Assembly: GCF_900109545.1 (NCBI RefSeq)
Contig: NZ_FOAP01000007.1
Coordinates: 310,001-374,000 of the forward strand
DNA length: 64,000 nucleotides
DNA from: Stigmatella aurantiaca
GTDB taxonomy: Bacteria; Myxococcota; Myxococcia; Myxococcales; Myxococcaceae
Reading direction: 5' to 3'
Position numbers and translations under genes: made by a program. Every line of letters begins with the position of its first letter. Within the stretch, counting starts at the first letter, position 1. Of the stretch, positions 11,643 through 30,712 are shown one piece after another. A model generated the notes under the pieces. The model did not search any database, was not told the origin of the DNA, and worked only from the letters and a program-made list of their open reading frames with translations.

Positions 11643-11690
11643 CGGCTCATAACCGATTGGTCCCCGGTTCGAATCCGGGAGGGCCCACTC
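11643..11690 (+). repeat. right 48-bp direct repeat (attR, orphan tRNA 3' half)
   Basis: It is identical to 7948-7995. It contains the anticodon loop, T-arm and 3' acceptor strand of the tRNA but no 5' half, so it cannot form a tRNA. Confidence 0.9.
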
Positions 11691-11700
11691 TGAGGAACCC

Positions 11701-11733
11701 TCCCGCGCCTCGGGATGAAGCCGAGGCGCGGGA
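11701..11733. terminator. perfect 13-bp hairpin, probably the original tRNA terminator
   Basis: TCCCGCGCCTCGG (11701-11713) pairs exactly with CCGAGGCGCGGGA (11721-11733) around a 7-nt loop. It lies just after the right repeat and just beyond the 3' end of the minus-strand sit locus, so it can serve both directions. Confidence 0.7.
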
Positions 11734-11755: not shown

Positions 11756-12358
11756 TCAAAGAAGCACGCCCTCGATTTTCTCCAGCACCGCCTTGATGGC
11801 TTCCGGGGTGGTGCCGCTGCGCTTGGCGAGGGCTGTTGCCGAGTACGTCATCGCGGCTGTCGAGGGCGGGTCCTGCGCGAGCCCCGCCATGACGACAGGC
11901 CCGATGTCCCCGGGCCAAGGCTGAGTGCTCAACTCGCGCCACCTTCCTACGGGATCCACGAGGGTGAAACACGGCCAGGACGGGAAACGCAGCGCGCGGA
12001 CGTCACATCCCAAAAACCTGCATGCATCCAGACGGGCTTGAGAGAAGTCGCCCCCCTCAATGCTGCCTTTCCCAGGGGAGTACGGCCATTCTCCAAAGTC
12101 ATTGCCCCTGAAGCTGCCGGTGAACTGGCAGTTCTCCAAATAGGCTTTGTCCCACAGGAAGCCTTTCAACTCCCGCTTCGCCTCGAAAGTGCAGTCAATG
12201 AATCGGGCTTGAGGAATGACCAGGTTCCGTGCCGCCCCCCTCAACACGAGGGTGCAGTTGCGGAGCGTCAACTTCGGCCCAAGGAAGTAGACGGCATCTG
12301 CCCCGATTTCGATCCGCTCATTCTTTAATTCCGCGTTTTCGAGATTGACTTGGATCAA
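11756..12358 (-). CDS. SitI-like immunity protein with pentapeptide-like beta-helix
   Basis: The product is 200 residues from a TTG at 12358. A GAGGG ribosome-binding site overlaps the end of the upstream toxin gene, which stops only 12 bp earlier. The N-terminal ~125 residues show A(N/D)LXX-type periodicity (LENAEL, LRNCTL, ARFIDCTF, AYLENCQF, GGDFSQARLDACRF) expected for a right-handed beta-helix. The C-terminal part is helical (TPEAIKAVLEKIEGVLL). There is no signal peptide, so it acts in the cytoplasm. The tight coupling to a SitA-like toxin gene makes immunity the most likely role. Pentapeptide-like proteins often mimic DNA or block nucleases, which would fit a nuclease toxin; that point is inferred. 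Confidence 0.75.
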   Translation of the reverse strand: MIQVNLENAELKNERIEIGADAVYFLGPKLTLRNCTLVLRGAARNLVIPQARFIDCTFEAKRELKGFLWDKAYLENCQFTGSFRGNDFGEWPYSPGKGSIEGGDFSQARLDACRFLGCDVRALRFPSWPCFTLVDPVGRWRELSTQPWPGDIGPVVMAGLAQDPPSTAAMTYSATALAKRSGTTPEAIKAVLEKIEGVLL

Positions 12359-12370
12359 GGCACAGAACCC

Positions 12371-14680
<2,310 letters not shown>

Positions 14681-14768
14681 ATTTTCCGCGCCGAGAGGCA
14701 TTCACCGCCCTGCGAGCTGCTCCCCAGTTTCCCCCAGGACACGCTCCTCGCCCCGGGTTGTTTGACGC

Positions 14769-16444
14769 ATGATGCGTCCCATGTCGCGACCACCTCCCCT
14801 GCCGGGCCCCTCCCTGTCCTCCGCCCTCGGAGAGCTGGCGCACGCCCAACAGCGTGCCGGACGCTCCGCCACGGCGGGGCTGGCGCTGCTCGGCGTGGTG
14901 GCCCTGGCCAGCCCCCTGCTCGCCTACCGGGAGGATCTCCAGAACGCCCGCGAGGAGATGCTCGGCAACCTCTTCAGCCAGGCCCAGGTGCAGGCCGAGG
15001 CGCTGGGCGTGCACCTGGGGCTGCTGGAGGCGGAGCTGCGCCGGCTGGCCGAGCACCCCCAGCTCATCCCCGAGGATGGCTCCTCGGACCCGGAGGTGGC
15101 CATGCTGGACAGTGCCTTCCACCACTCGCCCCTCTTCTCCGAGGGCGTGGCCCTGCTCACCCCCGAGGGGCGCCGCGTGTGGAGCGACCCGGACCAGATG
15201 TCGCTGGGGGACTCCCCCCTGACCCACCGCCCCTGGTTCCGCCGGGTGCTGGCCGAGGGCGTCTCGGACATCAACCTGCTGGAGGGGACGGATGGGCCGC
15301 TGGTGGTGGCGGTCCCCATCACGCACGGCGGCGAGGTGACGGGCCTGCTGGTGGGCGAGCTGCGCGCGGGGGCGCGTCCCCTTCCGGGCGTCCGCTTGGG
15401 GGGCGCGGACATGTCGCTGCTGCTGGATGGGGACGGCCAGCTCCTGCTGCCCGTGCACGCGCCGAACTTCGCCTGGAGCGCGGAGCGCGCCTCGCAGCTG
15501 CGCGCCCTGGCCGAGGCCCCCGGGCCCCTCGTGTTGGACGGCAAGCGCATGCTGGGCGCGGCGGCCCATGTCTCCGTCCCGGGCGTCAGCGGCATGCTGC
15601 TGGCCGTGCTGGAGGACGAGGAGCGGGACATCGCGCGGCTGCAGCGCCGCTTCCTCGGGCAGCTGCTCTTCCACATCGCCCTGCTGAGCAGCACCCTGCT
15701 GCTCTTCACCTTCCTGCTGCGCCGCTCGTACCACTCGCTGCTGGCGGCCGAGGAGCGGCTGCGGCACCAGGAGACGATGGCCGCGCTGGGCGCCGCCAGC
15801 CAGCTCATCGCTCACGAGGTGAAGAACGCCCTCAACGGCATCCAGGCGGCCCTGTCGCTGCTGCGGCCCGCCGCCACCGCGGGTGAGGTGGCCCTGCCCG
15901 CGCTGCGTGCCCAGGTGCAGCGGCTGGGGCACCTGGCCCGCTCGCTGCTGTCCTTCGGCGCCCCGAAGGCCGCCGCCCCGCGCCGCCCCTGCGAGCTGCA
16001 CCTGCTGGTGGAGGAGGCCCTGCAGTCGGTGCGCCTGGTGCCGGAGTCCGAGGACGTGCCCGTGCAGGTGACGCTGCAGGAGGGCCTCACCGCGCAGGCG
16101 GACCCGGCGCTGCTGGTGTCCGCCATCGACAACCTGGTGCGCAACGCGGTGGAGGCCGGCGCGGTGGCGCGCGACACGGGCCTGCGTCCCTCGCCCTGGG
16201 TGAGGGTGACCCTCGCGCGCGAGGCCAACGAGGCCGTCCTGCGGGTGGAGGACAACGCCGGCGGGGTGGACACGGACCTGGAGCCGCGCCTGTGGGAGCC
16301 CTTCGCCACCGCCCGCGCCAAGGGCGTGGGCCTGGGCCTGCCCATGGCCCGGGCCGCCGTGGAGTCCCATGGGGGCCACCTCACCTATACCCGCCTGCCC
16401 GATGGCAGCCGCTTCACCCTGCGGCTGCCCCTGGAGAGCACCCC

Positions 16445-16448
<4 letters not shown>
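14769..16448 (+). CDS. membrane sensor histidine kinase
   Basis: The product is 559 residues. It has two transmembrane helices (about residues 33-53, GLALLGVVALASPLLAY, and about 300-325, FLGQLLFHIALLSSTLLLF) that flank a ~240-residue periplasmic Cache/PAS-like sensor (LTPEGRRVWSDP, HRPWFRRVLAEG, LVVAVPITHGGEVTG). The phospho-acceptor is His349 in LIAHEVKNALNGI. The HATPase_c domain follows, with N box DNLVRNAVEAG and G boxes VEDNAGGV and GVGLGLPMAR. There is no HAMP domain. The stop overlaps the start of the NtrC-type regulator by four bases (ATGA), so the two form one transcription and translation unit. The Cache-like sensor suggests a small extracellular ligand; bicarbonate/CO2-related signals are an inference from the downstream operon. 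Confidence 0.92.
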
Positions 16449-17788
<1,340 letters not shown>

Positions 17789-17841
17789 GCAGGCAGCACT
17801 TCAAGATTCTTGTTCAAGGTTCTTTCATTGACTCCGGGTCC

Positions 17842-17860
17842 ACTTCAAATTTTTTGAAGT
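17842..17860. promoter_or_regulatory. candidate upstream activator site (perfect dyad)
   Basis: ACTTCAAA (17842-17849) and TTTGAAGT (17853-17860) form a perfect 8-bp dyad with a 3-bp centre, centred about 60 bp upstream of the -24 element. A further half-site ACTTCAAG lies at 17798-17805. Position and symmetry suit an NtrC-type enhancer for the adjacent regulator. The dyad is too weak as a hairpin to be the terminator of the regulator gene. Confidence 0.6.
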
Positions 17861-17910
17861 CTTCCGGGACTTCCCTGTAAGCCCTCAGAGGGAACCCCCC
17901 TTCACACACT

Positions 17911-17926
17911 TGGCACGGCTCTTGCC
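17911..17926 (+). promoter_or_regulatory. sigma-54 (-24/-12) promoter of the SulP-carbonic anhydrase operon
   Basis: TGGCACGGCTCTTGCC fits the sigma-54 consensus TGGCACGNNNNTTGCW except for the last base: TGGCAC at 17911-17916 and TTGC at 17922-17925, with the invariant GG and GC spaced correctly. Transcription would start near 17937, about 60 nt before the ATG at 18000. Confidence 0.85.
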
Positions 17927-17999
17927 CATATGAGCCGGACACGCGCCCCGTTTCCCGCGAGGAGACGCGGCGCCTTCCTGTGTGTGGAGGCTGAGAGAA

Positions 18000-19541
18000 A
18001 TGAAGTCCAACGAGCAGAAGGCCGGCGAAACCGGCTCGCTCCGGACGGTGCTGGCCAGTGACTTGCCCGCCTCCCTGGTGGTCTTCCTGGTAGCCCTGCC
18101 GCTGTGCATGGGCATCGCCCTGGCCTCGGGGGCTCCCATCATGTCCGGGCTCATCGCCGGGGTGGTGGGCGGCCTGGTGGTGGGCTTGTTCGGCGGTGTG
18201 CCGCTGCTGGTGAGCGGCCCGGCCGCAGGCCTGGCGGTAATGGTGTTCGGCTTCATCAATGAGCTGGGCTTCGCCGTCACGTGCGCCGCGGTGGCCGTCG
18301 CGGGCGTCATCCAGATGGTGCTCGGCGGCGTGAAGGTGGCGCGCGCCGCGCTGGGCATCTCCCCGGCCGTCATCCACGGCATGCTCGCGGGCATCGGCAT
18401 CCTCATCGTGCTGGGCCAGCTGCACATCGTGCTGGGCGGCGCGCCGCAGTCCAACGCCTGGGCCAACCTGCGCGAGCTGCCGGGGCAGATCATGGACCTG
18501 CATGGCCCCGCGACGATCCTGGGCGTGGTCACCCTTGGCATCCTGGTGCTGTGGCAGGTGATGCCCAACAGCCGCCTCAAGAAGGTGCCCGGACCGCTGG
18601 TGGCGGTGGTGGTGGGCTCGGTGGCCGCGGCGGTGTGGGGCGCGGACGTGAAGCGGGTGGATCTGGCCGGGAGCCTCTTCGAGAGCATCCAGCTGCCCCA
18701 GCTGCCCGAAAACTGGGGCGCCTTCGTGGTTGCGGTGCTCTCCCTGGCCCTGGTGGCCAGCGCCGAGTCGCTGCTGAGCGCGGTGGCCACGGACAAGCTG
18801 CACACCGGCCCTCGCGCCAACCTGGACAAGGAGCTGTTCGCGCAGGGCATGGCCAACACCCTGTCCGGGCTGATGGGCGGCCTGCCCATCACCGGCGTCA
18901 TCGTGCGCAGCGCGGCCAACATCGCCGCGGGCGCCAAGACGCGCGCGTCCGCCTTCATGCACGGCGTGTGGATGCTGCTCTTCGTGTCCCTGTTGGGCTC
19001 CTACCTCGGACTGGTGCCCCTCACCGTGCTGGCCGGTCTGCTCGTCCACGTGGGCATCAAGCTGGTCAACATGCACCACATCCAGGAGCTGCGCCGGCGC
19101 GGCGAGCTCGCCGTGTACGTGGTAACGGTGGCCGGCGTGGTGGGCATCAACCTGCTGGCCGGCATCGCGCTGGGCTTCGCGGTGGCGGTGGCGCGGCTGC
19201 TGTGGCGGCTGGGCCGGGTGCAGGTGCAGGTGAAGCAGGTGGGTGAGGTGCACCAGGTGCGCGTGGGCGGCGCCCTCACCTTCGTAGGCGTGCCGCAGCT
19301 GTCGGCCGCGCTCGCCCAGGTGCCCCATGGGGCACAGGTGGAGCTGGACCTCGCGGTGGAGACGCTGGACCACTCTGGCTACGAGGCCCTGGAGAGCTGG
19401 TGCCAGAACCACCGCAAGACGGGCGGCAAGGTGTGGATGGAGCCGCTCGAGGAGGTGTGGGCACGCAAGGGCTCCCCCTCCTCCAACAAGTCCGTAGTGC
19501 CCGTTTCCGCAACCACGACTCTTTCCTCGGAGAGTGCCTAA
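18000..19541 (+). CDS. SulP-family anion transporter, likely bicarbonate permease
   Basis: The product is 513 residues from the ATG at 18000. It is a polytopic inner-membrane protein of the SulP/SLC26 family. The SulP N-terminal signature is visible (DLPASLVVFLVALPLCMGIALASGAP), followed by about 12-14 helices and the segment FAQGMANTLSGLMGGLPITG typical of the family. The C-terminal ~80 residues form a short STAS-like domain (VRVGGALTFVGVPQLSAAL). The next gene, a beta-carbonic anhydrase, begins three bases after its stop. SulP/carbonic anhydrase pairs are thought to import and interconvert bicarbonate, so I favour bicarbonate over sulfate as substrate. Expression is probably sigma-54 dependent through the promoter at 17911. 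Confidence 0.93.
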   Translation: MKSNEQKAGETGSLRTVLASDLPASLVVFLVALPLCMGIALASGAPIMSGLIAGVVGGLVVGLFGGVPLLVSGPAAGLAVMVFGFINELGFAVTCAAVAVAGVIQMVLGGVKVARAALGISPAVIHGMLAGIGILIVLGQLHIVLGGAPQSNAWANLRELPGQIMDLHGPATILGVVTLGILVLWQVMPNSRLKKVPGPLVAVVVGSVAAAVWGADVKRVDLAGSLFESIQLPQLPENWGAFVVAVLSLALVASAESLLSAVATDKLHTGPRANLDKELFAQGMANTLSGLMGGLPITGVIVRSAANIAAGAKTRASAFMHGVWMLLFVSLLGSYLGLVPLTVLAGLLVHVGIKLVNMHHIQELRRRGELAVYVVTVAGVVGINLLAGIALGFAVAVARLLWRLGRVQVQVKQVGEVHQVRVGGALTFVGVPQLSAALAQVPHGAQVELDLAVETLDHSGYEALESWCQNHRKTGGKVWMEPLEEVWARKGSPSSNKSVVPVSATTTLSSESA

Positions 19542-19543
19542 TC

Positions 19544-20248
19544 ATGAAGAAGCTCGTTCAGGGTATCCTCGATTTCCAGCGCCACAGCCTTCCCGCCTAC
19601 CGCTCCACCTTCGCGCGGCTGGCCCATGGACAGACTCCCGACTGCCTGTTCATCGCCTGCGCCGACAGCCGCGTGGTGCCCAACCTGTTCGCGTCCACCA
19701 ACCCGGGTGACCTCTTCGTCATGCGCAACGTGGGCAACATGGTGCCGCCCTCGGACTCCTCGGGCCTGTCCCTGAGTGACCGCTCCGAGGCCGCGGCCCT
19801 GGAGTTCTCCCTGCTCACCCTGCCGGTGAAGGACATCGTGGTGTGCGGCCACTCCGGCTGCGGTGCCATGAAGGCCATTCTGTCGGGGTACAACGACCAG
19901 AAGACGCCCAACCTCAGCAGCTGGCTGGATGTGGGCCGCCCTGCCCTGGCCGCCTTCGAGCGCGGTGGGAAGATCGGCGAGGGGCTGGCCCCGTATGACC
20001 GGCTCAGCCAGTACAGCGTGCTGCAGCAGATGGAGAACCTGAAGACCTACCCCCTGGTGCGCGATCGTCTGGCGGCCGGCACCGTGCGGCTGCACGGCTG
20101 GTGGTTCGACATCGGCCATGCGCGGGTGCACACCTACCATCCGGACCTCGAGCGCTTCGTTCCCATCGATGAGCTCGAGGGAGAGCGCATGCTCAAGGAG
20201 ATGGAGAGGCCGAGCGGCGCGGGAGAGGCGTCCACCTCGGCCGCCTAA
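19544..20248 (+). CDS. beta-class carbonic anhydrase
   Basis: The product is 234 residues, a zinc enzyme that interconverts CO2 and bicarbonate. The zinc ligands and catalytic dyad are all present: Cys39, Asp41 and Arg43 in ACADSRVVP, then His103 and Cys106 in CGHSGCGAM. Other family markers are MRNVGNMVPP and the C-terminal LHGWWFDIG. The ATG at 19544 follows the SulP stop by two bases, so the pair is translationally coupled. The last ~20 residues (GAGEASTSAA) are low complexity. It probably supplies or traps bicarbonate at the inner face of the transporter. Confidence 0.96.
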   Translation: MKKLVQGILDFQRHSLPAYRSTFARLAHGQTPDCLFIACADSRVVPNLFASTNPGDLFVMRNVGNMVPPSDSSGLSLSDRSEAAALEFSLLTLPVKDIVVCGHSGCGAMKAILSGYNDQKTPNLSSWLDVGRPALAAFERGGKIGEGLAPYDRLSQYSVLQQMENLKTYPLVRDRLAAGTVRLHGWWFDIGHARVHTYHPDLERFVPIDELEGERMLKEMERPSGAGEASTSAA

Positions 20249-20270
20249 GCCTCCCTCGCTTGGAAAAACC

Positions 20271-20294
20271 GCCGCCCTTCCTCGGATGGGCGGC
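20271..20294 (+). terminator. hairpin after the carbonic anhydrase gene
   Basis: GCCGCCC (20271-20277) pairs with GGGCGGC (20288-20294) 23 bp after the stop codon. There is no T-run, so termination is likely but not certain. Confidence 0.5.
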
Positions 20295-20705
20295 AGGGAT
20301 GCCCAACGCTGCGCCCAATGATTGGGCACACGCCGGCCCCCAAGCGGCCCAGCCAGGCCGCAGGGGCGTGGGCTTCCAGGTCACTGTAGGTACTTGGGGC
20401 TCAACACCCCGCGCTCTGGGAGGGCCCCTGTGCTGGGGCCCACCGAGCAGGCCACGAGGGCAATGCCAGGTGCTCCACCATGGCGCTCACCCCACCGGGC
20501 GCCATCAGGGATGCCAGCCCCTCCTGCGGCCTCCACTCCCAGCGCAGGCGAAGACTTCCAGCGCTTTCCGTCCGGCGCAGCAGCCTCACCCCATCCCATC
20601 TCGGCGTGCGTTGCTTCGCCGGCGCCACCGCCACGGCCAGCGACCGCCTCTCCTCCAGCCCCGGCGTAAGCCCCCGCTTGAGGGAACCTCCGTGGCCAGA
20701 AGGGG
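20295..20705. other. gene-free stretch before the beta-lactamase remnant
   Basis: About 410 bp without a gene I can support on either strand. Codon periodicity is disturbed and short reading frames run in all directions, as expected for decaying sequence next to the pseudogene that follows. Confidence 0.55.
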
Positions 20706-21235
20706 GTGGACCTCTGGGGCGGCTGGAAGGACGCGAGCACTCGCGAGCCCTGGGAGGAGGACACGGCTGGCTCGACGACGATGCGCCCGTCGCCTCCTAC
20801 TGGGCCGAGTTCGCCCAGGCCGGCAAGTCCCGCATCACCGTGCATCAGCTCCTCGCGCATAAGACCGGCCTGCCCGCGTTCGATGGGTGGATGGAGCCGG
20901 TGAAGCTCGCGGGCCTCGACTCCCTGGCCCGGGGGCTCGCCTGGCAGGCCCCAGCGTGGGAGCCCGGCACGCACCACGGCGACCCCAGCTTCACCAGTGG
21001 CTGATTCCTGGGCGAGCGCATCCCGCTCGCGCAGTCGCTCCGGCTTCGACTCGCCCGTGTACCGCGCCCCGCCCGTCCTGCCCCCGGGCACCCTCGGCGC
21101 GGGGGGCTCCCTGGGCTTCGCCGGCCCGGATGCCCAGTTCGGCTTCGGCTACGGGATGAACCGCGCGGGCCAGCACCTCATGACCGGCCCACGCGCCCTC
21201 GCCCTGCTCACCTGTCCGGCTCCACCTCACGCGCG
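20706..21235 (+). pseudogene. decayed beta-lactamase-family serine hydrolase
   Basis: Three homologous blocks occur in order but in different frames. At about 20706-20765 there is VDLWGGWKDAS...PWEEDT. At about 20766-21003 there is WLDDDAPVASYWAEFAQAG through ITVHQLLAHKTGLPAF to a stop. At about 21045-21230 there is SPVYRAPPVLPPGTLGAGGS through FGFGYGMNRAGQHLM. These are recognisable as the beta-lactamase/EstB-like family. Between blocks one and two the segment that should carry the catalytic Ser-x-x-Lys motif is missing, and a second deletion separates blocks two and three. The gene is therefore inactive. It lies between the carbonic anhydrase operon and the minus-strand SulP gene. Confidence 0.75.
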
Positions 21236-21264
21236 GCGTGAGCCGGACCTCGGCCCTGGGCCGG

Positions 21265-22995
21265 CTACGAATCCATGACCGGCGCCCGGGTCAGGACGGG
21301 CCGGGCCTCCTCCTGTACGCCCACGGCGGCGGCGGCCTTGTGACTCCGGGCGATGTGCTCGAGCGCATCGTCATACGAAGACACCAGGCTGGCGGACGGA
21401 GACTGCCGCGGGAAGCCACCCTGCTCGAGCATCCGCCCCACCTCGCCCCACGCGACGACGACGACCACGCCGTCGCGCGTGACGAGGCAGTCCCGGAGGT
21501 TCAGCACCTCCTGGAGTCCCGCGGCATCCAGGTAGGGCACCGCGGTCAGATCGAGCACGGCGTACCTCGGCAAGGGGTGACTGGCGAGCGCCGTGTTGAG
21601 GACGCCAGGAGAGAGGAAGTCGAGCGGCCCGCGGACGCGGATGCGCTGGAGGGGCGGCCGCTCGTCCTGCCCGGCGGCGGCCGCGCTCAGGGTGCGGAAG
21701 TGGGGGCGTCCATCCAGCCGGAGGATCCGCGTCTGGATCTCCGTCCGGGGCCGGGCCCTCAAGAGCAGTCCGAGGGAGAGCAGCACGCCCGCGCCGAGTC
21801 CGAGCAGGAGATCCACCGAGGCGATGACGATGGCGGTCACCGCCACCACCGCCACCTGGGGACGCTCCTGATCCCACAGCTTGCGCAGGCCCCGGAAATC
21901 CAGCAGCCGCACGCCGACCACCACGAGAATGCCCGCGAGCGCGGCGATGGGCACGCGAGCGACGAGCGCTCCGGCCACGAGGCACACGGCCAGCAGCAGC
22001 AGCGCATGGAGCACGGATGCCGCGCGGGTACGGGCTCCCGCCTGGATCGACACCGAGGAGCGGACGATGGCCCCCATCACCGGCATGCCGCCGAAGAGCG
22101 AGGAGGCGAGGTTGGCCATGCCTTGGGCCATCAGCTCCTGATCATGGTCGCTCTGCTGCTTCTCGAAGCCCGGGAACTGATCAATGGCGCTGGCCGACAT
22201 CAACGAGCCCAGCGACGCGAGCACGGTGAGCGAGAGGACGTCGGGCAGCAGCGCGCTCCAGTCCACGCCCGCCAGCAAGGGCAGTTGGGGCAAAGGCAGT
22301 CCCGCGGGCAGGCTCCCCACGCGGGCGAGCTCCGGCCCCAACAGTCCGCCGAGCAGCGTGGCCACCACGAGCCCCACCAGCACCGAGGGCACCCGGCGCT
22401 GCACGCGAGGCAGGCCCACCATGCATGCGATCGCCAACACACCAATGGCAATGCCTCCCCCGTGCATCATCCATTCCCCCGCCTGCGCGGGCAGCGAGGA
22501 CAGCGAGCCGGCCGTCTTCGGCAATCCCAACAACCGGGGCAGCTGGCTGTTGAGGAGGAGCAGGCCGATGCCCGCCATGAATCCGCGCACCACCGGCGCC
22601 GGCAGCAACTTCGCCAACCGGCCCACGCGCAGCAGGCCGAGCACGATCTGCAAGAGCCCGCAGAGGAAGGTGGCCACGACCATGCCCGTGATGCCATGGC
22701 GCTGGACCAGGAGGAGCACGATGGGCACCAGCGCGGCCTCGGGCCCCGTCACCTGCAGACGGGAACCGCCCAGCAACCCGGCCACGACACCGGCGATCGC
22801 CCCACTGATGAGACCCACGCTGGCTGGCAGTCCCGACGCCACCGCGAGTGCGAGATTGAGCGGAAGCGCCACGCACGCCACCGTGAGCGCTCCAGACAGG
22901 TCCTGCCCCAATGTCTTGGGAGAGACCATCTGCTTCCAGTCCTGCCACAGAAGGCGCGCACGAGCCGCGGCTCCAAACGAGTGATGTTCGAGCAT
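21265..22995 (-). CDS. SulP-family anion transporter with STAS domain
   Basis: The product is 576 residues from the ATG at 22995; in-frame sequence further upstream is Arg-rich and not family-like. It has the SulP signature (DLSGALTVACVALPLNLALAVASG) and about 12 membrane helices. The ELMAQGMANLASSLFGGMP segment is present. A complete C-terminal STAS domain follows (VRGPLDFLSPGVLNTAL, LDLTAVPYLDAAGLQEVLNL). It differs from the first SulP in this window in its full STAS domain and in lacking a linked carbonic anhydrase. The substrate (sulfate, bicarbonate or another anion) cannot be told from sequence. It is divergent from a histidine kinase/NtrC-type pair, whose 215-bp shared upstream region contains spaced direct repeats, so regulation by that pair is plausible. 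Confidence 0.92.
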   Translation of the reverse strand: MLEHHSFGAAARARLLWQDWKQMVSPKTLGQDLSGALTVACVALPLNLALAVASGLPASVGLISGAIAGVVAGLLGGSRLQVTGPEAALVPIVLLLVQRHGITGMVVATFLCGLLQIVLGLLRVGRLAKLLPAPVVRGFMAGIGLLLLNSQLPRLLGLPKTAGSLSSLPAQAGEWMMHGGGIAIGVLAIACMVGLPRVQRRVPSVLVGLVVATLLGGLLGPELARVGSLPAGLPLPQLPLLAGVDWSALLPDVLSLTVLASLGSLMSASAIDQFPGFEKQQSDHDQELMAQGMANLASSLFGGMPVMGAIVRSSVSIQAGARTRAASVLHALLLLAVCLVAGALVARVPIAALAGILVVVGVRLLDFRGLRKLWDQERPQVAVVAVTAIVIASVDLLLGLGAGVLLSLGLLLRARPRTEIQTRILRLDGRPHFRTLSAAAAGQDERPPLQRIRVRGPLDFLSPGVLNTALASHPLPRYAVLDLTAVPYLDAAGLQEVLNLRDCLVTRDGVVVVVAWGEVGRMLEQGGFPRQSPSASLVSSYDDALEHIARSHKAAAAVGVQEEARPVLTRAPVMDS

Positions 22996-23092
22996 GATAC
23001 CGGCGCGCCTTTTCACGCCGCGTGCCGCGCCGCGTTCCCTCGGAAGACGCCCGCCCCTGTCGGCATCACCCAACACCTGGGTTGAGGGGATG

Positions 23093-23122
23093 AGCCGACA
23101 CCTGTCCGTTCCAGCCGACACC
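23093..23122. repeat. pair of 10-bp direct repeats in a divergent promoter region
   Basis: AGCCGACACC occurs at 23093-23102 and again at 23113-23122, exactly 20 bp apart (two helical turns). It lies between the divergent SulP and histidine kinase genes. A short dyad (CAAC...GTTG, 23071-23084) lies next to it. The spacing suits cooperative binding of a regulator. Confidence 0.5.
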
Positions 23123-23210
23123 AGCTTAACGAGTGAACAGCCGGGCCCACTCCGCCGTGCACGCAGGCGGAGAGCGCGTTAGGACGCGCACCCCGGAGCC
23201 TGCCCACGAC

Positions 23211-24743
23211 ATGCGTCTCGTTCAGCGTCTGCTCATCTCCCACTCCCTGCTCACCGCCATCCTGCTCGGTGCCGCCGGCTTCGCCGTGGTGGCCCTGGTT
23301 CGCATGACCAGCCTCCTCACGGAGATCCGCGAGGAACATCTGAGCAAGGTGCAGGAGGAGGAGGCCGTGCACCAGGCGGCCTGGGGCGTGGAGGTCGCCG
23401 CCCGGCACGCCATCCTGGCCTGTGAACGCGATTCGAACGCCGGGCCCGAGGTGGCGCTCTCCCTGAAGGAGTCCCTGCGCCAGCTGGAGTTGCTGCTCTC
23501 CCATCACGGAGACGCCATCCAGCCGAGCATCCGGAACTCGGCGGAGGATTACCGCGACTATGCCCGGTACGTGAGCGAGGAGAACACCTGCACCCGCCTC
23601 TTCGATCCCGAGCTGCGGCAGAAGCGGCTCATCTGGGACGAGAACCTCACGGATGCCTGGATCACCATCGTGCGCTCCCTGCTCCAGGAGGTCCTCAAGC
23701 GCGAGGCCGAGGCGTATGCCATTGGTGCCACGGCGATCGGCGTGGGGTCCATCTTCGGAGCCCTGGCGATGTTCGCCGCCTGGGGCGTAGCGCGCTGGAT
23801 GGCGCGGGGGGTGACGCGGCCCCTGGAGCTGCTCGCCACACAGGCCCAGCAGGTGGGCCAGGGGAACTTCGCCCCCATCGAGCCGGTGGGCGGTCCGCTC
23901 GAGGTGCAGGAGCTGGCCTCCGAGCTGGAGCGGACACGCGCGCGTCTGGCGGAGATTGATCACCTCAAGGACGCTTTCGTGGCCTCCGTGTCGCACGATC
24001 TCCGGACACCGCTCACGCGGCTGCGGGCCGCGCTCGGGCTGATGGCGGACGGCACCACCGGCCCGCTCAATGCGCAGCAGCGGCGGGTGATCGATCTGGC
24101 GCGAAGTGCCTGCGAGCGGGAGATCCGCCTGGTGTCCGCGCTGCTCGACATGTCCCGCGTGAAGTCCGGCAAGGCGCTGCGGCGCGAGGCGGGCTGCCTG
24201 CTGGATGACGTGCTCCTCCGGGCCCTGGAGGACATGCAGGGCGAGGCCGAGGAGGCCGGGGTCCAGCTGGAGCTGGAGAAGGAGGGGCCGCTGTCCCCCG
24301 CCTCGCTCGACGCGGCCCTCATCGAGCGCACGGTGGCCAACCTCCTGGGCAACGCCATCCGCGTCTCCTCACGGGGGCAGAAGGTCCGGATGCTCCGCAC
24401 CGTCACCCAGGAGGGGCCTCCCGGGCACACCGCGTCCGGCACCTGGGCCCGGGTGGTGGTGCGCGACGAGGGCCCGGGAGTCCGGCCCGAGGTGCGAAAC
24501 CGGCTCTTCGAGCACTTCTTCACCTCTCCGGTGGGCAACACCGCCAACCCCCCCGGAATCGGCCTGGGCCTGCCGCTGGCGCGCGAGATGATGCGTGCGC
24601 ATGGTGGCGACGTGGCGTTCCTCGACGAGCCGGGCCCGGGCGCGGCCTTCGCCCTCTGGATACCCCTCGAAGGCCCGGCCTCCCTCCGCTACGCTCCCGA
24701 GGCGACTCCTTCTGCGTCGCCTGATGCCCGGAGCCCTGAATGA
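23211..24743 (+). CDS. membrane sensor histidine kinase with HAMP domain
   Basis: The product is 510 residues from the ATG at 23211. TM1 is near residues 7-32 (SHSLLTAILLGAAGFAVVAL) and TM2 near 175-200 (IGATAIGVGSIFGALAMFA). They flank a helical periplasmic region of about 140 residues rich in Glu and containing two cysteines (ILACERDS, ENTCTRLF), probably a four-helix-bundle sensor. A HAMP domain follows (TRPLELLATQAQQVGQGNF). The phospho-acceptor His262 is in FVASVSHDLRTPLTRLR. The HATPase_c N box NLLGNAIRVSS and G boxes VRDEGPGVR and GIGLGLPLAR complete it. The stop overlaps the regulator start by four bases. It is divergent from the SulP transporter gene. Confidence 0.92.
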   Translation: MRLVQRLLISHSLLTAILLGAAGFAVVALVRMTSLLTEIREEHLSKVQEEEAVHQAAWGVEVAARHAILACERDSNAGPEVALSLKESLRQLELLLSHHGDAIQPSIRNSAEDYRDYARYVSEENTCTRLFDPELRQKRLIWDENLTDAWITIVRSLLQEVLKREAEAYAIGATAIGVGSIFGALAMFAAWGVARWMARGVTRPLELLATQAQQVGQGNFAPIEPVGGPLEVQELASELERTRARLAEIDHLKDAFVASVSHDLRTPLTRLRAALGLMADGTTGPLNAQQRRVIDLARSACEREIRLVSALLDMSRVKSGKALRREAGCLLDDVLLRALEDMQGEAEEAGVQLELEKEGPLSPASLDAALIERTVANLLGNAIRVSSRGQKVRMLRTVTQEGPPGHTASGTWARVVVRDEGPGVRPEVRNRLFEHFFTSPVGNTANPPGIGLGLPLAREMMRAHGGDVAFLDEPGPGAAFALWIPLEGPASLRYAPEATPSASPDARSPE

Positions 24744-26206
24744 GCCAGTCCTCCCAGCCTCCGTCCTCTCCCGCCAACCGCGTGCTGGTGGTGGATGACG
24801 ACCTCGAGCTGTGTGAGCTCATCTCTCTGCGCCTGGAGGCCCAGGGGATGGAGGTGGCGAGCGTCCCCACCGGCCAGCAGGCGCTCGAGCGGGTGGAGGC
24901 GGGCAAGGTGGATGCGATGGTGCTCGATCTCCGGCTGGGAGACGTGGATGGCCTGGAGGTGCTCGCCCAGGCACGCGAGCGCATCCCGGAGCTGCCGGTG
25001 GTCATCCTCACCGCGCACGGCACCATCGAGACCGCGGTGGAGGCCATGCGCCGGGGCGCCTATGGCTTTCTCACCAAGCCCTTCCAGGACCACGAGCTGG
25101 TGCAGAAGCTGGTGCACGCGCTCGAGCGCACGACCCTGCAACGCGAGGTGGATGACCTGCGCCGTATCGTGGCCGGCGTTCCGCGCGAGCGGTTGCTCGG
25201 CCGGAGCCCGGCCATCACCCAGGTGCGGGCGCACATCGCCCGGGTGGCGCCCTCGGATGCCACGGTGCTGGTGCTCGGCGAATCAGGCACGGGCAAGGAG
25301 CTGGCCGCGCGATTGCTGCATGGGCTCTCCCGCCGCGCGCATGGGCCCTTCGTGGCGGTGAACTGCGGGGCGCTCCCGCCGGAGCTGCTGGAGAGCGAGC
25401 TGTTCGGCCACGTGAAGGGGGCCTTCACCGGAGCCACCCAGTCGCGTGAGGGGCTCTTCGGGGCCGCGCGGGGTGGAACGCTCTTCCTCGACGAGGTGGG
25501 CGAGGCGCCCCCCAGCGTGCAGGTGAAGCTGCTGCGGGTGTTGCAGGAGCGGCGCTATACCCGCGTGGGCTCGAGCACCGAGGAGGAAGCGGACGTGCGG
25601 GTGGTGGCGGCCACCAACCGGGATCTCCGCGAGGAGGTGGAGCTCCGGCGCTTCCGCGAGGATCTCTACTACCGGCTCTACGTGGTGCCGATCACCATGC
25701 CGCCGTTGCGCGAGCGGGCCGAGGACATTCCGCTCCTGGCCCAGCTCTTCCTCGAGCGGGCCGCGGCGCACAATGGAATGCGGGTGCCGCGGCTGAGCCC
25801 GGAGGCCCTCCAGCTGCTGCGGGACTACACGTGGCCGGGCAACGTGCGCGAGCTGCTCAACGTGATGGAGGCCGCCGTCCTGCTGGCCGCCTCCGAGGAG
25901 CTGCGGGCCGAGCACCTGAGGCACCTCGTGCAGCCCTCCCCCCGCGCCACGCCGCCCGGGATGGAGGAGGCCTCACCCGGCGCCGTTTCTCCCCGGGCGT
26001 CCGAGACCGAGGCCCCGCTGCCCACCCTCCGCGAGGCGCGTGACGCGTTCGAGCGCGACTACCTGATGGAGGCCCTGCGGCGCAGCGGCGGCAACGTGAG
26101 CGCCGCGGCGCGCATGGCCGGGCGCAACCGCACCGACTTCTACGAGCTGCTGCGCCGGCACGGGCTGTCGGCCTCGGACTTCAAGGACACGGGCCACGGG
26201 CGCTGA
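24740..26206 (+). CDS. NtrC-family sigma-54-dependent response regulator
   Basis: The product is 488 residues: receiver domain (VDDDLELCE, phosphorylated Asp in MVLDLRLGDVDG), AAA+ domain with Walker A GESGTGKE, Walker B LFLDEVGEA and an intact GAFTGA sigma-54 contact loop (227-232), and a Fis-type C-terminal helix-turn-helix (SAAARMAGRNRTDFYELLRR). It is translationally coupled to the upstream kinase. Unlike the first NtrC-type regulator in this window it keeps the canonical GAFTGA. Its target may be the divergent SulP gene, but I found no clear -24/-12 element on that side, so the target remains open. The stop is followed within 40 bp by the start of foreign-looking DNA. Confidence 0.94.
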   Translation: MSQSSQPPSSPANRVLVVDDDLELCELISLRLEAQGMEVASVPTGQQALERVEAGKVDAMVLDLRLGDVDGLEVLAQARERIPELPVVILTAHGTIETAVEAMRRGAYGFLTKPFQDHELVQKLVHALERTTLQREVDDLRRIVAGVPRERLLGRSPAITQVRAHIARVAPSDATVLVLGESGTGKELAARLLHGLSRRAHGPFVAVNCGALPPELLESELFGHVKGAFTGATQSREGLFGAARGGTLFLDEVGEAPPSVQVKLLRVLQERRYTRVGSSTEEEADVRVVAATNRDLREEVELRRFREDLYYRLYVVPITMPPLRERAEDIPLLAQLFLERAAAHNGMRVPRLSPEALQLLRDYTWPGNVRELLNVMEAAVLLAASEELRAEHLRHLVQPSPRATPPGMEEASPGAVSPRASETEAPLPTLREARDAFERDYLMEALRRSGGNVSAAARMAGRNRTDFYELLRRHGLSASDFKDTGHGR

Positions 26207-26241
26207 GCCTGACAACCTTCTCCTGGAGTTCCTGGGCCCGG

Positions 26242-26282
26242 CTTGCGGCAAGCGGGGCAGCATCGTCGTCTCCAAACGCTTT
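26242..26282 (+). pseudogene. vestige of a double-CXXC Sit-type immunity gene
   Basis: These 41 bp match 14522-14562, inside the immunity-like gene at 13994-14680, at 37 of 41 positions. In the corresponding frame they encode [13 protein letters not shown] against [13 protein letters not shown] there. Nothing before or after matches. This is a scar of a paralogous immunity gene left at the boundary between a core operon and an AT-richer accessory stretch. Confidence 0.7.
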
Positions 26283-26324
26283 TGTTACCCCCAAAAACAT
26301 AAACTCACGGAATGCAGGTTTTCC

Positions 26325-26364
26325 AATATTAATATTTGACCTAAAAACAAGAGAATGACATACG
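26325..26364 (+). promoter_or_regulatory. AT-rich palindrome abutting a candidate promoter
   Basis: The perfect 12-bp palindrome AATATTAATATT (26325-26336) touches TTGACC (26336-26341), which is 17 bp from CATACG (26359-26364). Such an AT-rich block is exceptional in this GC-rich window. It lies 65 bp upstream of the secreted-protein gene at 26430 and could hold its promoter and an operator. The -10 match is poor. Confidence 0.4.
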
Positions 26365-26429
26365 CCCCTCGCTGTTCGCTGGCGAGCCATACATGTCTTG
26401 CATTTCAAATCTTCGATGAGGTGTTACGT

Positions 26430-27440
26430 ATGAAGAAATTGTTCAGAGCGCTCCACTCCTCCGGAACCGTCTTCTCCGCCACTTCGGCCCTCCTCCTCTC
26501 CACGGCCAGCATGGCGGAGGGAAGCACCAGTGCATCCCCCCTCTCGGGATGCGCGCCTCTGTGTGTGGGAGGCGTTTGCACGCCCGTCCAGATCGCGGAC
26601 TTCTGGCCCACGACATCCATCGCAGTGACGGACCAGGACGTGTACTTCTCCGGCGGCGCCTACCCGACGCTTTCGAACGGCTTCGTGGGCAGGGTTTCCA
26701 AGTCAGGCGGCCCCGCCACACGCATCCTCACGAACCTCGCGGCCATCCCGGCCGTCCGGGAAACCGGCGGAGATCTCTATGTCCTGGGCTCCGCACATCC
26801 CCTGCCGGGCAAGGTGAACCGGCTGAACGCGAACGGCTCCTTCACGGCCATTCCGGCCTCGGCCGGCAAGCCGCGATTCTTCACGGGGGATGCCACCCAC
26901 CTCTACTGGATCGACACCAACGATGGGCACTTCTACGCGGTGCCACGCGAGGGAGGCTCGCCCACCGTGGTCGCGCAGAGTGGCCTTCCGACCAAGCCAC
27001 TTCAGGCCCTCACGGACGAGGACAACCTCTACTGGGTGAACCGGCCGGCGAGTGGAAAGGGATGGACCCTCTGGAAGGCGCCGAAGGACGGCGGGGCCGC
27101 GCCCACCCAGCTTCTCTTCATCCAGGCGGGCAAGTTCCACCAGTTCGCCATGGACGCGGACACTATCTACTTCCTCGACTACTACACCGGGCTCAACAAG
27201 ATCTCCAAGAGCGGCGGCGCCGTGACGAACATCGCCTACGCGGACAGCCCTGGGAGTGTCCTGGCCGTCGATGACGAGCGGCTCTACTGGATCAAGGACG
27301 AAGTCCTCACGGCGACCTGCAAGGATGGGAGCGGCGATCAGGTCCTGACCACGGAGACCTACTCCACGGACGATATCGCCGTGGATGATTCGGGCATCTA
27401 CTGGGCCCAGTTCTACAAAGTCTGGAAGCTCGCGAAGTAG
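26430..27440 (+). CDS. secreted beta-propeller-like protein
   Basis: The product is 336 residues from the ATG at 26430 with GAGGTG eight bases upstream; a signal peptide is evident (SALLLSTASMAEG). The mature part contains repeats of about 45 residues with the pattern xxLYWxxxxxxxxxxVPKxGG (examples: THLYWIDTNDGHFYAVPREGG, split as THLYWIDTNDG and HFYAVPREGG; NLYWVNRP and LWKAPKDGGA; TIYFLDYYTGLNKISKSGG). This is typical of DUF5050-like or TolB/NHL-type beta-propellers. Two or three N-terminal cysteines are present (GCAPLCVGGVC). No enzyme motif is seen, and an extracellular or periplasmic binding role is plausible. Similar propeller proteins are numerous paralogues in myxobacteria. Confidence 0.8.
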   Translation: MKKLFRALHSSGTVFSATSALLLSTASMAEGSTSASPLSGCAPLCVGGVCTPVQIADFWPTTSIAVTDQDVYFSGGAYPTLSNGFVGRVSKSGGPATRILTNLAAIPAVRETGGDLYVLGSAHPLPGKVNRLNANGSFTAIPASAGKPRFFTGDATHLYWIDTNDGHFYAVPREGGSPTVVAQSGLPTKPLQALTDEDNLYWVNRPASGKGWTLWKAPKDGGAAPTQLLFIQAGKFHQFAMDADTIYFLDYYTGLNKISKSGGAVTNIAYADSPGSVLAVDDERLYWIKDEVLTATCKDGSGDQVLTTETYSTDDIAVDDSGIYWAQFYKVWKLAK

Positions 27441-27499
27441 CCCGGCATTCCCCAGCCAAGACAGCCGGCTTGGATGTTGTTCCTTGGCGGGTCTGAAGG

Positions 27500-27541
27500 G
27501 GCTCCGCTGGGATGGCGGAGCCCTGGGCTTGCCCCCAGGGG
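27500..27541 (+). terminator. two overlapping, mutually exclusive hairpins
   Basis: GGGCTCCGC (27500-27508) pairs with GCGGAGCCC (27516-27524). CCCTGGG (27522-27528) pairs with CCCAGGG (27535-27541). They share CCC at 27522-27524, so only one can form at a time. They follow the secreted-protein gene by 60 bp; a terminator is the simplest reading. Confidence 0.45.
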
Positions 27542-27692
27542 CCTCCGCTGCGGGCGAGGGTGAGCTCGGCTGCCCGGCCGGCCGAAGCCCCAGTCCGTGG
27601 CGCAGATTTTCTGCATCATCTTCCACACTGTCGGCTCATTCCGTGTGAGCGAGCTTCGCTCCCCCAAGCGGCACCTGAGGAATCTACTCAAC

Positions 27693-29051
27693 ATGAAGAA
27701 TTTCAGTAAACCTTCGACGTGGCCCCTTTCGGCCGCCCTGTTGCTTCTCTTGACGGTCAGCGTTCCCTCCTCCGCGAGCGCGGACGGGCTTGCGCCTGAG
27801 CTGACAGAGCTGACCCAGGTGCAGAAGCTGATTCCGCGTCCGGAGCAGTCCGCCCTGAAGCCACTCAAGGCGCTGCCGATGCTGCACCGCGCGTCCCGGG
27901 TGGATCTCTCCATCCTGGAGGCACACGCCAAGACCCTCCACGAGGGGGAAGTTCATCCGCTCGCGACGAACACGGACCCCAGCTCAGCGCTCTACATGAG
28001 CCTGAACACCGCGGTCAGCAACACCCTCTCCGCGCAAGGCGAGCAGCACTGGTACTTCGTCCACTCGGCGGACGCAGGCAAGTTGACCTTCAACCTGCAG
28101 GTGGTGAACAGCGCCAGCGTCGACTATGATCTGCACGTCTTCAAGCTCAACCTGGACACCGGCATGCTGGAGGACGAGCAGGTCTCCGCCTTCGGGCCGC
28201 AGACGAGCGAGCAGCTCAGCACCTTGGTCAGCGAAGACTCCTACTATTTCATCTGCGTCAACGCCTACCAGGGCTTCGATGCGGCGCGTCCCTATCAGTT
28301 AGCCGCCCTCTACTCGCCCACGAGCGACGCCGCCGAGGCGGATGACCACCCGGCACAAGCCAAGGCGTACTCGGTCAGGTTCACCGCCAACCAGACCCTG
28401 GACAACGCCTATGATATTGATTGGATCCAGTTCACTGCCCCGAAAGCCAACAATTTCACGTTCACGTTCAGCAACGTGCCCTCCTCTTCCAATTACCAGG
28501 TGGGCATCTATGACGGAAACTTGAACCGCCTGGCGACCCTCACGAAGAACTCCACCGTGACGTACTCGATGGGCGCAGGCGTGTACTATCTTCGCGTCGC
28601 GTCGCTGGACACAGCCGTTCCGGCCGCGGCCTACCAGCTGAGCGTGAACACCGCCGCCACCTCGGCCTACCTGGGCTGGGTGGACACGGACGGGGGAAAT
28701 GCGGGATTCGTCAATTACGGCGCGGGGAACTTCTGGCGCGTCTACCGCTCGACCATTCTCGCCGGCGCCCTGACGGATATCAATGGCGACCCTGTCGTGA
28801 ACGCGCCTGTCACCATCGTCGTCAACACCCCTCAGACGTATGTCTCCACCACCACGGTCTCGGGCGTCACGGATGTGGGTGGCAACTTCGGCCTCTCCGT
28901 GAACCTGCCTTCCGCCAAGGGCACTTACGTGTATGACAACTGGTCCAGCTATCACTATTTTGACATGGCGACCGTGAGCATCCGCTCTTCCATCCTCCAG
29001 TACAACACGAGCGTGTATCACTTCGCGTACTCCACCTACAAACCGCACTGA
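27693..29051 (+). CDS. secreted protein with pre-peptidase-like domains
   Basis: The product is 452 residues from the ATG at 27693 with TGAGGA upstream at 27675-27680. A clear signal peptide is present (WPLSAALLLLLTVSVPSSASA). Two successive PPC-like (bacterial pre-peptidase C-terminal) beta-sandwich units are visible, with QHWYFVHSADAGKLTFNL and later DIDWIQFTAPKANNFTFTF, each followed by a Y-x-L-x-V strand. A C-terminal domain resembles a carboxypeptidase-regulatory or Ig-like fold (DINGDPVVNAPVTIVV). No protease domain is present, so it is not an enzyme by itself. It is probably an extracellular or matrix protein. It is less GC-rich than core genes. A strong hairpin follows the stop. Confidence 0.75.
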   Translation: MKNFSKPSTWPLSAALLLLLTVSVPSSASADGLAPELTELTQVQKLIPRPEQSALKPLKALPMLHRASRVDLSILEAHAKTLHEGEVHPLATNTDPSSALYMSLNTAVSNTLSAQGEQHWYFVHSADAGKLTFNLQVVNSASVDYDLHVFKLNLDTGMLEDEQVSAFGPQTSEQLSTLVSEDSYYFICVNAYQGFDAARPYQLAALYSPTSDAAEADDHPAQAKAYSVRFTANQTLDNAYDIDWIQFTAPKANNFTFTFSNVPSSSNYQVGIYDGNLNRLATLTKNSTVTYSMGAGVYYLRVASLDTAVPAAAYQLSVNTAATSAYLGWVDTDGGNAGFVNYGAGNFWRVYRSTILAGALTDINGDPVVNAPVTIVVNTPQTYVSTTTVSGVTDVGGNFGLSVNLPSAKGTYVYDNWSSYHYFDMATVSIRSSILQYNTSVYHFAYSTYKPH

Positions 29052-29065
29052 CGCCTGAGTCCCCC

Positions 29066-29093
29066 GCCCCCTTTCCTCCGCTGGAAAGGGGGC
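29066..29093 (+). terminator. hairpin after the PPC-like secreted protein gene
   Basis: GCCCCCTTTCC (29066-29076) pairs perfectly with GGAAAGGGGGC (29083-29093), an 11-bp stem with a 6-nt loop, 15 bp after the stop codon. No T-run follows. Confidence 0.65.
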
Positions 29094-29290
29094 CATGTAC
29101 CGGCCCAACCCCGCTGCTCGTCCGAAACGGGTACGCGGGCCATGCCGCGCAGAAAACCCGAGGAAAGTAGGACCTCGTAGGTTTCGAGAGTCATCACTTG
29201 CCCTTGTAGGGAGGCGGTTGATTTTTCCGGTCACAGGCTGGATCCTGGCCCTGGACGAGCCGTGGAATGGGCACGACCGTGGAGGGGCGG

Positions 29291-29707
29291 GTGGCAAACA
29301 AGACGCAGGCGACCGACGCATCCGTTGACAGCTTTTTCGACAAGATCGAACCCCAGGCACGGCGCGACGACGCGAAGGCCGTCGCCGCACTCATGGCGCG
29401 GTGCGCTGGGGCTCCACCCCGAATGTGGGGCAGCTCCATCGTCGGATTCGACAGCTACCACTATCGCTACGAGAGTGGCCGTGAAGGCGATGCGCCGCGA
29501 ATCGGCCTCTCCCCGCGCAAGGCCGCGCTCGTGCTCTACATCATGGGTGGTTTTCCTCGCTACGAGGCGCTGCTCTCCAAGCTGGGCAAAGTCACAACCG
29601 GCAAGGCCTGTATATACATCAAGAAGCTTTCCGACGTTGATCTTGCGGTGCTTGAAAAGCTGATCACCGAATCGTTGGCCTATCTGCGCAAGCTCTATCC
29701 CGCCTGA
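29291..29707 (+). CDS. DUF1801 (YdhG/YdeI-like) domain protein
   Basis: The product is 138 residues. I prefer the GTG at 29291 (ANKTQATDASVDSFF follows) because GGAGG lies six bases upstream and the family normally begins close to this sequence; an in-frame ATG at 29267 would add eight residues. Family blocks are MWGSSIVGFDSYHYRYESG, GLSPRKAALVLYIMGGF and GKACIYIKKLSDVDL. DUF1801 proteins are small, soluble and cytoplasmic, with a CyaY-like alpha/beta fold and no settled function. It stands alone between the secreted-protein region and a small minus-strand gene. Confidence 0.85.
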   Translation: MANKTQATDASVDSFFDKIEPQARRDDAKAVAALMARCAGAPPRMWGSSIVGFDSYHYRYESGREGDAPRIGLSPRKAALVLYIMGGFPRYEALLSKLGKVTTGKACIYIKKLSDVDLAVLEKLITESLAYLRKLYPA

Positions 29708-29798
29708 AGCTCGCGAAGGTGGACCGCGGACGCGGAACCAAGGTGCGGAGCGCCAGCGCTTCCAGTGGGAGGCGAGGCGTCAACGGATGTTGGAGGCT

Positions 29799-30077
29799 TT
29801 AGACAGAAGCTCGCTCGCGAAACTCGGCGACCCGGTCGAGGAGGCGCATGATCGCTGCGAAGTGATCGCCGTGGGCGTCTGCCAGGAAGCGAGCGTGCCA
29901 ACCCTCGGGAGGAAACTCGCCCTTCTCGTCTCGAATGTAGAACTGGATGGCTCCAGCAATGTTGCCAGATGCGATTCGAGTCCAAAGCCCAGCCCTGAGT
30001 GAGCCGGGTAATGCCTGTGCCGTCGTGGTGGCGAGTAATACTCCCGATAGCAGTAAGGTTCGAAGAAAACCGAGCAT
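29799..30077 (-). CDS. small exported protein of unknown function
   Basis: The product is 92 residues with a probable signal peptide (MLGFLRTLLLSGVLLATTTAQA). The short mature part contains IQFYIRDEKGEFPPEGWHARF and a helical end (IMRLLDRVAEFRERASV); I split no motif because none is recognised. It is not similar to any family I can name. Its size and single domain suggest a small periplasmic protein. Codon use is plausible but less GC-biased than that of neighbouring core genes. Confidence 0.55.
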   Translation of the reverse strand: MLGFLRTLLLSGVLLATTTAQALPGSLRAGLWTRIASGNIAGAIQFYIRDEKGEFPPEGWHARFLADAHGDHFAAIMRLLDRVAEFRERASV

Positions 30078-30310
30078 TCTTGATTAGTCTCTTGAGTCGG
30101 GCTTCGTCGCGGGGCTTGATCACATGGTCACACCAGGCGCACCTCATCCGGGACTTCCGCCAGTTCACCGTCAGCCCCCCCGGAATGGCTCCTGCGGCGC
30201 CTACCCGGAGAGGGGGCGTGAGCGGGTCAAATTTGTCCAATACGGCGGGCAGCCCCCCTCCTTAAAGTTCCGGGCATGACGCATTCCCGCGTCCCCACGA
30301 GGCCCTCTCC

Positions 30311-30712
30311 ATGACGCAGCCCACCGCCAGCTCCGCCCCGACCTTCTACCCCACGCTGCGCTACAAGGACGCGCCCGCCGCCATCCGCTGGCTCGCGGCC
30401 GCCTTCGGCTTCCAGGAGCACCTGGTGGTCCCCGGCCCCAACGGCACCGTGGCCCACGCCGAGCTGCGCTTCGGCACGGGCATCTTCATGATGGGCAGTC
30501 AGAAGGACGACCTCTACGGCAACGCGGGCATGGCCCCCTATGTCTACGTGAGCGACATCGACGCTCACTGCGCCCGGGCACGGGCCGCGGGGGCCGAAAT
30601 CGTGAGGGAGCCCTTCAACACCGACTATGGTTCGCGGGATTACGCGGCACGGGACTGTGAGGGCCACGTCTGGAGCTTCGGCACCTACCGCCCCGCGCCG
30701 GATTCCCGCTGA
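30311..30712 (+). CDS. VOC-superfamily (glyoxalase/bleomycin-resistance-like) protein
   Basis: The product is 133 residues with paired beta-alpha-beta-beta-beta modules. The N-terminal module has PTLRYKDAPAAIRWLAAAFGF; in short blocks this is TLRYKDAPAAI and WLAAAFGF. The middle strand is VAHAELRFGTGIFMMG, and the C-terminal module has YVYVSDIDAH and ends CEGHVWSFGTY. This is the YkcA/PhnB-like type often annotated as a glyoxalase or antibiotic-resistance protein. The metal ligands cannot be assigned with certainty: the final module keeps a His (GHVW), but the N-terminal module lacks a clear one. It is cytoplasmic. It lies alone 66 bp before the M19-like gene. Confidence 0.88.
   Translation: MTQPTASSAPTFYPTLRYKDAPAAIRWLAAAFGFQEHLVVPGPNGTVAHAELRFGTGIFMMGSQKDDLYGNAGMAPYVYVSDIDAHCARARAAGAEIVREPFNTDYGSRDYAARDCEGHVWSFGTYRPAPDSR

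Follow-up and report, generated by a model that had tools for sequence, protein, structure and literature searches.

A probable immunity-gene remnant in a tRNA-Met-bordered island of Stigmatella aurantiaca

Introduction

How does a scrap of a toxin-immunity gene come to lie by itself behind an ntrC gene? This question is raised by a short element, here called the scar, in a 64,000-nt stretch of the Stigmatella aurantiaca genome (assembly GCF_900109545.1, contig NZ_FOAP01000007.1, positions 310,001 to 374,000), which we refer to as the window. The scar resembles part of an immunity gene located 11.7 kb away in the same window, and an earlier note on this DNA had suggested that sit-type loci entered and decayed at this site. 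We find that the scar is probably the decayed copy of an immunity gene in an island where toxin and immunity genes turn over.

The sitAI kin-discrimination loci of myxobacteria are described in parts of PMC5562445, PMC8546572 and PMC10047993 as present in many copies per genome and often carried on mobile DNA. For the type VI secretion system (T6SS) clusters of Vibrio cholerae, sections of PMC5361080 describe orphan immunity genes in arrays. Our literature searches turned up no paper on decaying fragments of sit loci. If scraps of this kind prove reliably readable, they reveal the past self-recognition genes of a lineage and the order of toxin and immunity loss. The scrap itself is ordinary gene decay.

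Identity of the scar

The comparison rests on two features:

26238 to 26281, plus strand: immunity-gene remnant (C-terminal part, Imm11/double-CXXCG type), from local alignment, a profile match in frame and comparison with 30 family loci
13994 to 14680, plus strand: immunity gene with two CXXC pairs and without an intact toxin; PF09535 and PF07791 above their gathering scores

The best local alignment pairs 26238-26281 with 14518-14562 over 45 columns with one gap (89% identity, E 1.7e-8). When a 161-bp query (26180-26340) was searched against the 9.37-Mb genome, 14518-14562 was the sole match besides the query itself. The match reported in the earlier note is real, but its count of 37 identical bases in 41 needs correction, as the ungapped comparison of 26242-26282 with 14523-14563 gives 36/41. 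Dinucleotide shuffles of the scar 41-mer (n = 1000) reached at most 30/41 anywhere in the window. Among 1000 random 41-mers from the window, ten matched a second place at 33/41 or more; two of these were at the scar and the rest include a tRNA repeat (11643-11716). At least 36/41 was reached by two random 41-mers, both in that repeat.

The similarity extends to the reading frame. The nine residues GKRGSIVVS are identical between the scar frame and the 13994 gene, as had been noted before, and the next residue differs. In its frame the scar matched the family profile with 13.9 bits (E 4.4e-6, three sequences searched); this profile, which was also used on the window and related stretches, was built from at most 15 of the 30 family loci, with one strand read. 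In both DNA and frame, the scar is similar to the 13994-14680 immunity family beyond chance.

The 161-bp slice was also searched against 59 genomes, the own genome included, and seven were matched at E <= 0.001. Wherever the scar part was matched, the place was an immunity-family locus (own genome, G001 twice, G002, G004, G006 and G009), and the matches to query positions 1-34 (G001 and G013) are the end of ntrC. None of these 59 genomes showed the scar as conserved intergenic DNA. Neither chance nor, in the genomes searched, conserved intergenic sequence, the two objections that the earlier note had raised against itself, accounts for the match.

Alignment of 26214-26327 with the 30 family loci on both strands scored best with the own copy (63), followed by G006 (60), G004 (58), G001 (58) and then G002 (48). 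The lower scores descend in steps (48, 42, 40, 38), and because of this stepwise fall past the best four a claim that the scar matches only one immunity subclade was dropped. Among the alignments listed, 18 of 24 end at 26281. Over a 40-bp core, the scar shares 36 bases each with the own and G006 copies and 35 each with those of G001 and G004; compared pairwise, the own, G001 and G004 copies have 38-39 of these bases in common. As the scar is equally far from the own and G006 copies, while the own, G001 and G004 copies are closer together, it is not a recent copy of the 13994 gene.

Decay and extent of the remnant

The marks of decay can be seen directly. From the stop at 26097 up to the scar, the frame contains no start codon, and a 1-nt gap lies near the left end of the scar. 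The residue before GKRGSIVVS is a C where R is invariant in 12 aligned sequences; the residue after it is a K where the family has E, in a nearly invariant column of the 12-sequence alignment. Because of the missing start codon, the gap and these two changes, the scar is debris that has lost its coding ability, and not a gene. Most likely the remnant does nothing now.

We also considered that the remnant continues past 26281, since the profile alignment ran to approximately 26325. Unanchored protein shuffle tests of this part gave p 0.0024 with one homolog and 0.18 with another; in the corresponding DNA tests, p ranged from 0.09 to 0.42. The extension was dropped after a test anchored at the end of the core.

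Sequences flanking the scar

The scar is confined to a 114-bp slice (26214-26327) and is surrounded by the following features:

24740 to 26206, plus strand: NtrC-type sigma-54 response regulator gene (ntrC), from Pfam/NCBIfam models and synteny; its 3' flank is common to G001 up to 26213
26214 to 26237, no strand: 24 bp between the ntrC flank and the scar, outside the G001 match and outside the scar alignment
26282 to 26327, no strand: AT-rich stretch 3' of the scar, not supported as immunity-gene tail and not clearly the leader of the next gene
26328 to 27440, plus strand: AT-rich leader and coding sequence of a probably secreted protein (ATG at 26430; signal-like start by eye, DUF5050 below cut-off)
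26214 to 30220, no strand: block not shared with G001, whose DNA at this place is different and 3.5 kb long

The ntrC stop codon is at 26204-26206 and the scar starts 31 bp later. The GC content falls from 72.1% in ntrC to 65.9% in the scar and 40.5% in 26282-26434, in agreement with the previous placement of the scar where the ntrC operon ends and AT-richer DNA begins. The flanks on the two sides are each conserved independently. The secreted-protein gene and its leader were found at other loci in G062 (from window position 26335, 87%) and G033 (from 26328, 86%), both without the scar. Since these genomes share it elsewhere without the scar, the AT-rich sequence from about 26328 on belongs to the secreted-protein gene. 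When 26282-26327 was tested as part of that leader, p was 0.02 with G062 and 0.26 with G033.

On the ntrC side, the congener G001 (approximately 95% DNA identity here) is collinear with the window from 13953 to 26213 and again from 30221, with the exception of roughly 20.3-21.1 kb, where there are partial matches only. At the DNA level the ntrC operon (21087-26211) shares 86-89% identity with G013, G033 (another genus) and Archangium violaceum, but only about 74% with G004 and G005, two congeners in which the matching DNA is located elsewhere. It was possibly acquired.

The tRNA-Met island

The scar lies within an island delimited by a tRNA-Met gene and a glyoxalase-like gene:

7920 to 7993, plus strand: tRNA-Met, left edge of the island (tRNA gene prediction)
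11312 to 11650, minus strand: HTH_17/excisionase-like gene adjoining the tRNA repeat; a piece of its gene end is at the ntrC junction in G001
11643 to 11716, plus strand: att-like repeat of 7948-8023 (3' part of tRNA-Met plus bases downstream of it); 68/76 columns, first 48 identical
11756 to 12358, minus strand: gene X, pentapeptide-like (below cut-offs), possible SitA5 partner; fragments in G005
12371 to 13849, minus strand: SitA5-family polymorphic toxin gene (NF050093, 237.4 bits, cut-off 160)
30311 to 30712, plus strand: glyoxalase-like (VOC) gene, right edge of the island (PF00903, 41.8 bits, cut-off 20.6); counterparts in G001, G004 and G005

In this setting the glyoxalase-like gene is present in four of the seven genus genomes searched (this genome, G001, G004 and G005), and all four carry genes or fragments of the toxin-immunity neighbourhood beside it. 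In G004, tRNA-Met is followed by an inverted copy of 14729-20272, by 8091-9877, an immunity gene, gene X together with a SitA5 fragment, and the glyoxalase-like gene. The SitA5 remnant there comprises residues 440-470 only, and the immunity gene is an orphan. The G005 stretch starts with a copy of the HTH (helix-turn-helix) unit (98.5%) and the tRNA-Met 3' part, continues with an X fragment 15 bp from an immunity-gene fragment and an inverted 14728-20310 block, and ends with another X fragment, part of the HTH unit and the glyoxalase-like gene. In G001, the end of the HTH_17 gene starts approximately 10 bp past the ntrC junction. In the stretches fetched from G001 and G005 only the tRNA-Met 3' part was found, and not the whole tRNA gene. 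The island, and the related genes or debris in the four genomes with this setting, are thus direct observations.

A general association of immunity loci with tRNA or HTH genes was not borne out by counts at 30 immunity loci and 30 control loci, and we claim it for this island alone. ARAGORN found tRNA genes at 1/30 immunity loci and 0/30 controls, the HTH protein was matched at 1/30 of each (the single control, L018, is in fact the ntrC junction of G001), and the tRNA repeat at 1/30 and 0/30, respectively.

Origin of the scar

In the explanation that we consider probable, a second copy of the 13994-family immunity gene would once have stood in the island between tRNA-Met and the glyoxalase-like gene. 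Rearrangements would have deleted that copy save 44 bp, leaving the ntrC operon on the left and the secreted-protein gene on the right. Toxin and immunity genes of kin discrimination would turn over in this island: units arrive, toxins are lost, immunity genes stay as orphans and the remainder is reduced to fragments. We infer both the whole gene formerly at this site and the order of these events. The earlier suggestion that sit-type loci entered and decayed here holds in so far as family origin, decay marks and same-neighbourhood pieces in sister genomes agree with it.

Several results weigh against this explanation. The earlier note had proposed to look for the full gene by alignment across relatives. 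We examined the ntrC-ortholog loci of G001, G013, G033, G028, G004, G005, G030, Archangium violaceum and Pyxidicoccus fallax, with unequal downstream lengths. The last and A. violaceum came from a wider search that kept 80 loci of 218 relatives, of which these two were used (80-86% identity; L100 for A. violaceum, L101 for P. fallax) and the other 78, all at most 56% identical, were left out. No immunity-family match follows ntrC at any of the nine loci; the sole match among them, upstream of ntrC in G001, corresponds to the 13994 gene. Beside the scar, no remnant of a toxin gene was detected. Past 26281, DNA anchored at the core end scored 0 with each of four homologs, and therefore the surviving 44 bp are too short to prove a former complete gene. 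When a profile search covered all six frames of the window and of eight related stretches, the scar by itself attained no better than E 0.053. The scar is absent from G001, so that loss in G001 and a later arrival in the window are indistinguishable. The immunity genes that G004 and G001 have in the island resemble the 13994 gene most closely, and the scar need not correspond to them. As for further genomes, G006 has only the DNA beyond the glyoxalase-like gene, the 19 kb fetched there giving no match to the immunity, toxin, SitA5, X or HTH proteins, and G002 and G003 gave just short weak matches.

The main rival is that the scar is filler DNA, a short patch copied ectopically from an immunity gene elsewhere during rearrangement, with no full second gene ever present here. 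The element is just 44 bp long, lies near rearrangement boundaries on both sides and lacks tail homology when anchored, all of which would fit a patch. However, its 36/40 identity to both the own and the G006 copy would make such a patch old or foreign, and same-neighbourhood pieces in three sister genomes favour gene turnover. We consider filler DNA unlikely. Far less probable is a conserved functional element, regulatory or encoding a short peptide, that resembles the immunity gene: the frame is open from 26097 to 26337, but it has no in-frame start codon, conserved positions are changed, and no such match follows ntrC in G001 or the other orthologs examined. A chance match is hardly credible in view of the E value and of 1000 shuffles, none of which exceeded 30/41.

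The immunity family and its toxin partner

The 13994 gene product has 228 aa and exceeds the gathering scores of both Imm11 (PF07791, 25.8 bits against 22.1) and Gmx_para_CXXCG (PF09535, 27.3 bits against 25). C39/C42 and C148/C151 are invariant in 12 family sequences, giving the two CXXC pairs expected of SitI6. On these matches the family is assigned to Imm11/double-CXXCG. In contrast, the protein fails the NCBIfam SitI6 equivalog (TIGR02264) with 20.7 bits against a cut-off of 100.15, as does the G006 homolog (20.5 bits). The structure model of the immunity protein is poor (pLDDT, predicted local distance difference test, 34.5) and its PHROGs match is weak.

The own genome has four close copies of the immunity gene and two remote ones, and a match was found in 12 of the 39 genomes searched, own included. 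Fragments are common: at 12 of 69 places (at least 50% identity) the match covers less than 160 of 228 residues. Of these 12, one adjoins a contig end, and the members of two pairs are so near each other that each pair may be a single broken copy.

Directly upstream of the 13994 gene, a trace of its partner is left:

13954 to 14004, plus strand: toxin stub, the final 16 codons and stop of a lost toxin gene; it overlaps the immunity start codon and holds an AGAGG ribosome-binding-like site

The 13994 immunity gene is an orphan. The toxin remnant upstream of the immunity gene comprises 16 codons here, 22 in G004 and 56 in G001. The G006 partner toxin has 224 aa, a hydrophobic, lipoprotein-like start (by eye) and the core GQNHH...HCGYQDWHRKVD. 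It represents a toxin-like family (e.g. L057:303-974) that is small and probably exported, with an HH...HCGY..WHR core invariant in 16 sequences. Of 31 immunity loci, 30 were counted, L065 being left out with a 28% partial match. At 19/30 a toxin-like gene of this family lies directly upstream of the double-CXXC immunity gene; the matches there include the HH core, not all of them in one unbroken frame, and L058 is disrupted upstream. The HH-core match is absent at the other 11 (L003, L055, L056, L061, L062, L066, L067, L069, L073, L078 and L081), where L069 has only a degraded 26% toxin match and L078 and L081 have none.

Scans of four partner toxins against Pfam and NCBIfam gave no relevant model and none to SitA, AHH or DUF2380/TIGR02269; the adjacent SitA6 toxin (DUF2380/TIGR02269) that goes with SitI6 is thus not seen among them. 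The toxin structure model is confident only C-terminally (block means 78-98 from residue 131 on). A Foldseek search with this model listed no PDB structure (E up to 10), and the toxin profile run against PDB sequences yielded weak matches only (best 0.039). From the HH...H pattern and the partners of the Imm11/double_CXXCG clan named in parts of PMC12077181, the toxin may act as a nuclease.

In the 11 immunity starts displayed, AGAGG (seven) or CGAGG (three) lies seven bases 5' of the start, within toxin codons, and L079 has neither. Such a ribosome-binding-like site inside toxin codons would explain why the stub is retained. The toxin would be small, exported and nuclease-like, with an HH motif, and the gene of its double-CXXC immunity partner would have both start codon and ribosome-binding site within the toxin's final codons, so that deletions leave a toxin stub while the immunity gene survives. 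Tentatively, and with slightly less than even confidence, we propose that the scar is the end stage of this lopsided decay, in which deletions cut the toxin to a stub and the surviving immunity gene was later eroded. The tRNA-Met island would then be a per-species record, each species keeping different live genes, orphans and scraps as a readable history of kin discrimination.

As with the V. cholerae arrays in the sections of PMC5361080 consulted, immunity genes would outlast toxins and remnants mark earlier replacements. There, arrays lie behind a T6SS cluster, whereas here a myxobacterial island bordered by tRNA-Met holds a 44-bp end stage. The likeness to sitAI loci, and with it part of the previous sit-type label, lies in the SitA5-family toxin of the island; the difference is an immunity gene without intact toxin and four scanned partner toxins without a SitA match. 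Delivery by TraAB outer membrane exchange is a further hallmark of Sit systems. The 13994 protein passes both Pfam models of the Imm11/double_CXXCG clan as outlined in parts of PMC12077181, but the four toxins match neither AHH nor DUF2380 and the SitI6 cut-off is missed. The toxin-immunity pair behind the scar may therefore constitute an unnamed kin-discrimination family in these myxobacteria.

Three further observations concern the island. The SitA5 toxin gene and gene X (11756-13849) are divergent from the immunity gene at 13994. The two-component block 14729-20272 is inverted and moved in G004 and G005 (approximately 96% identity). Finally, a repeat of about 105 bp at 9907-10011 has numerous copies in this genome and in G001.
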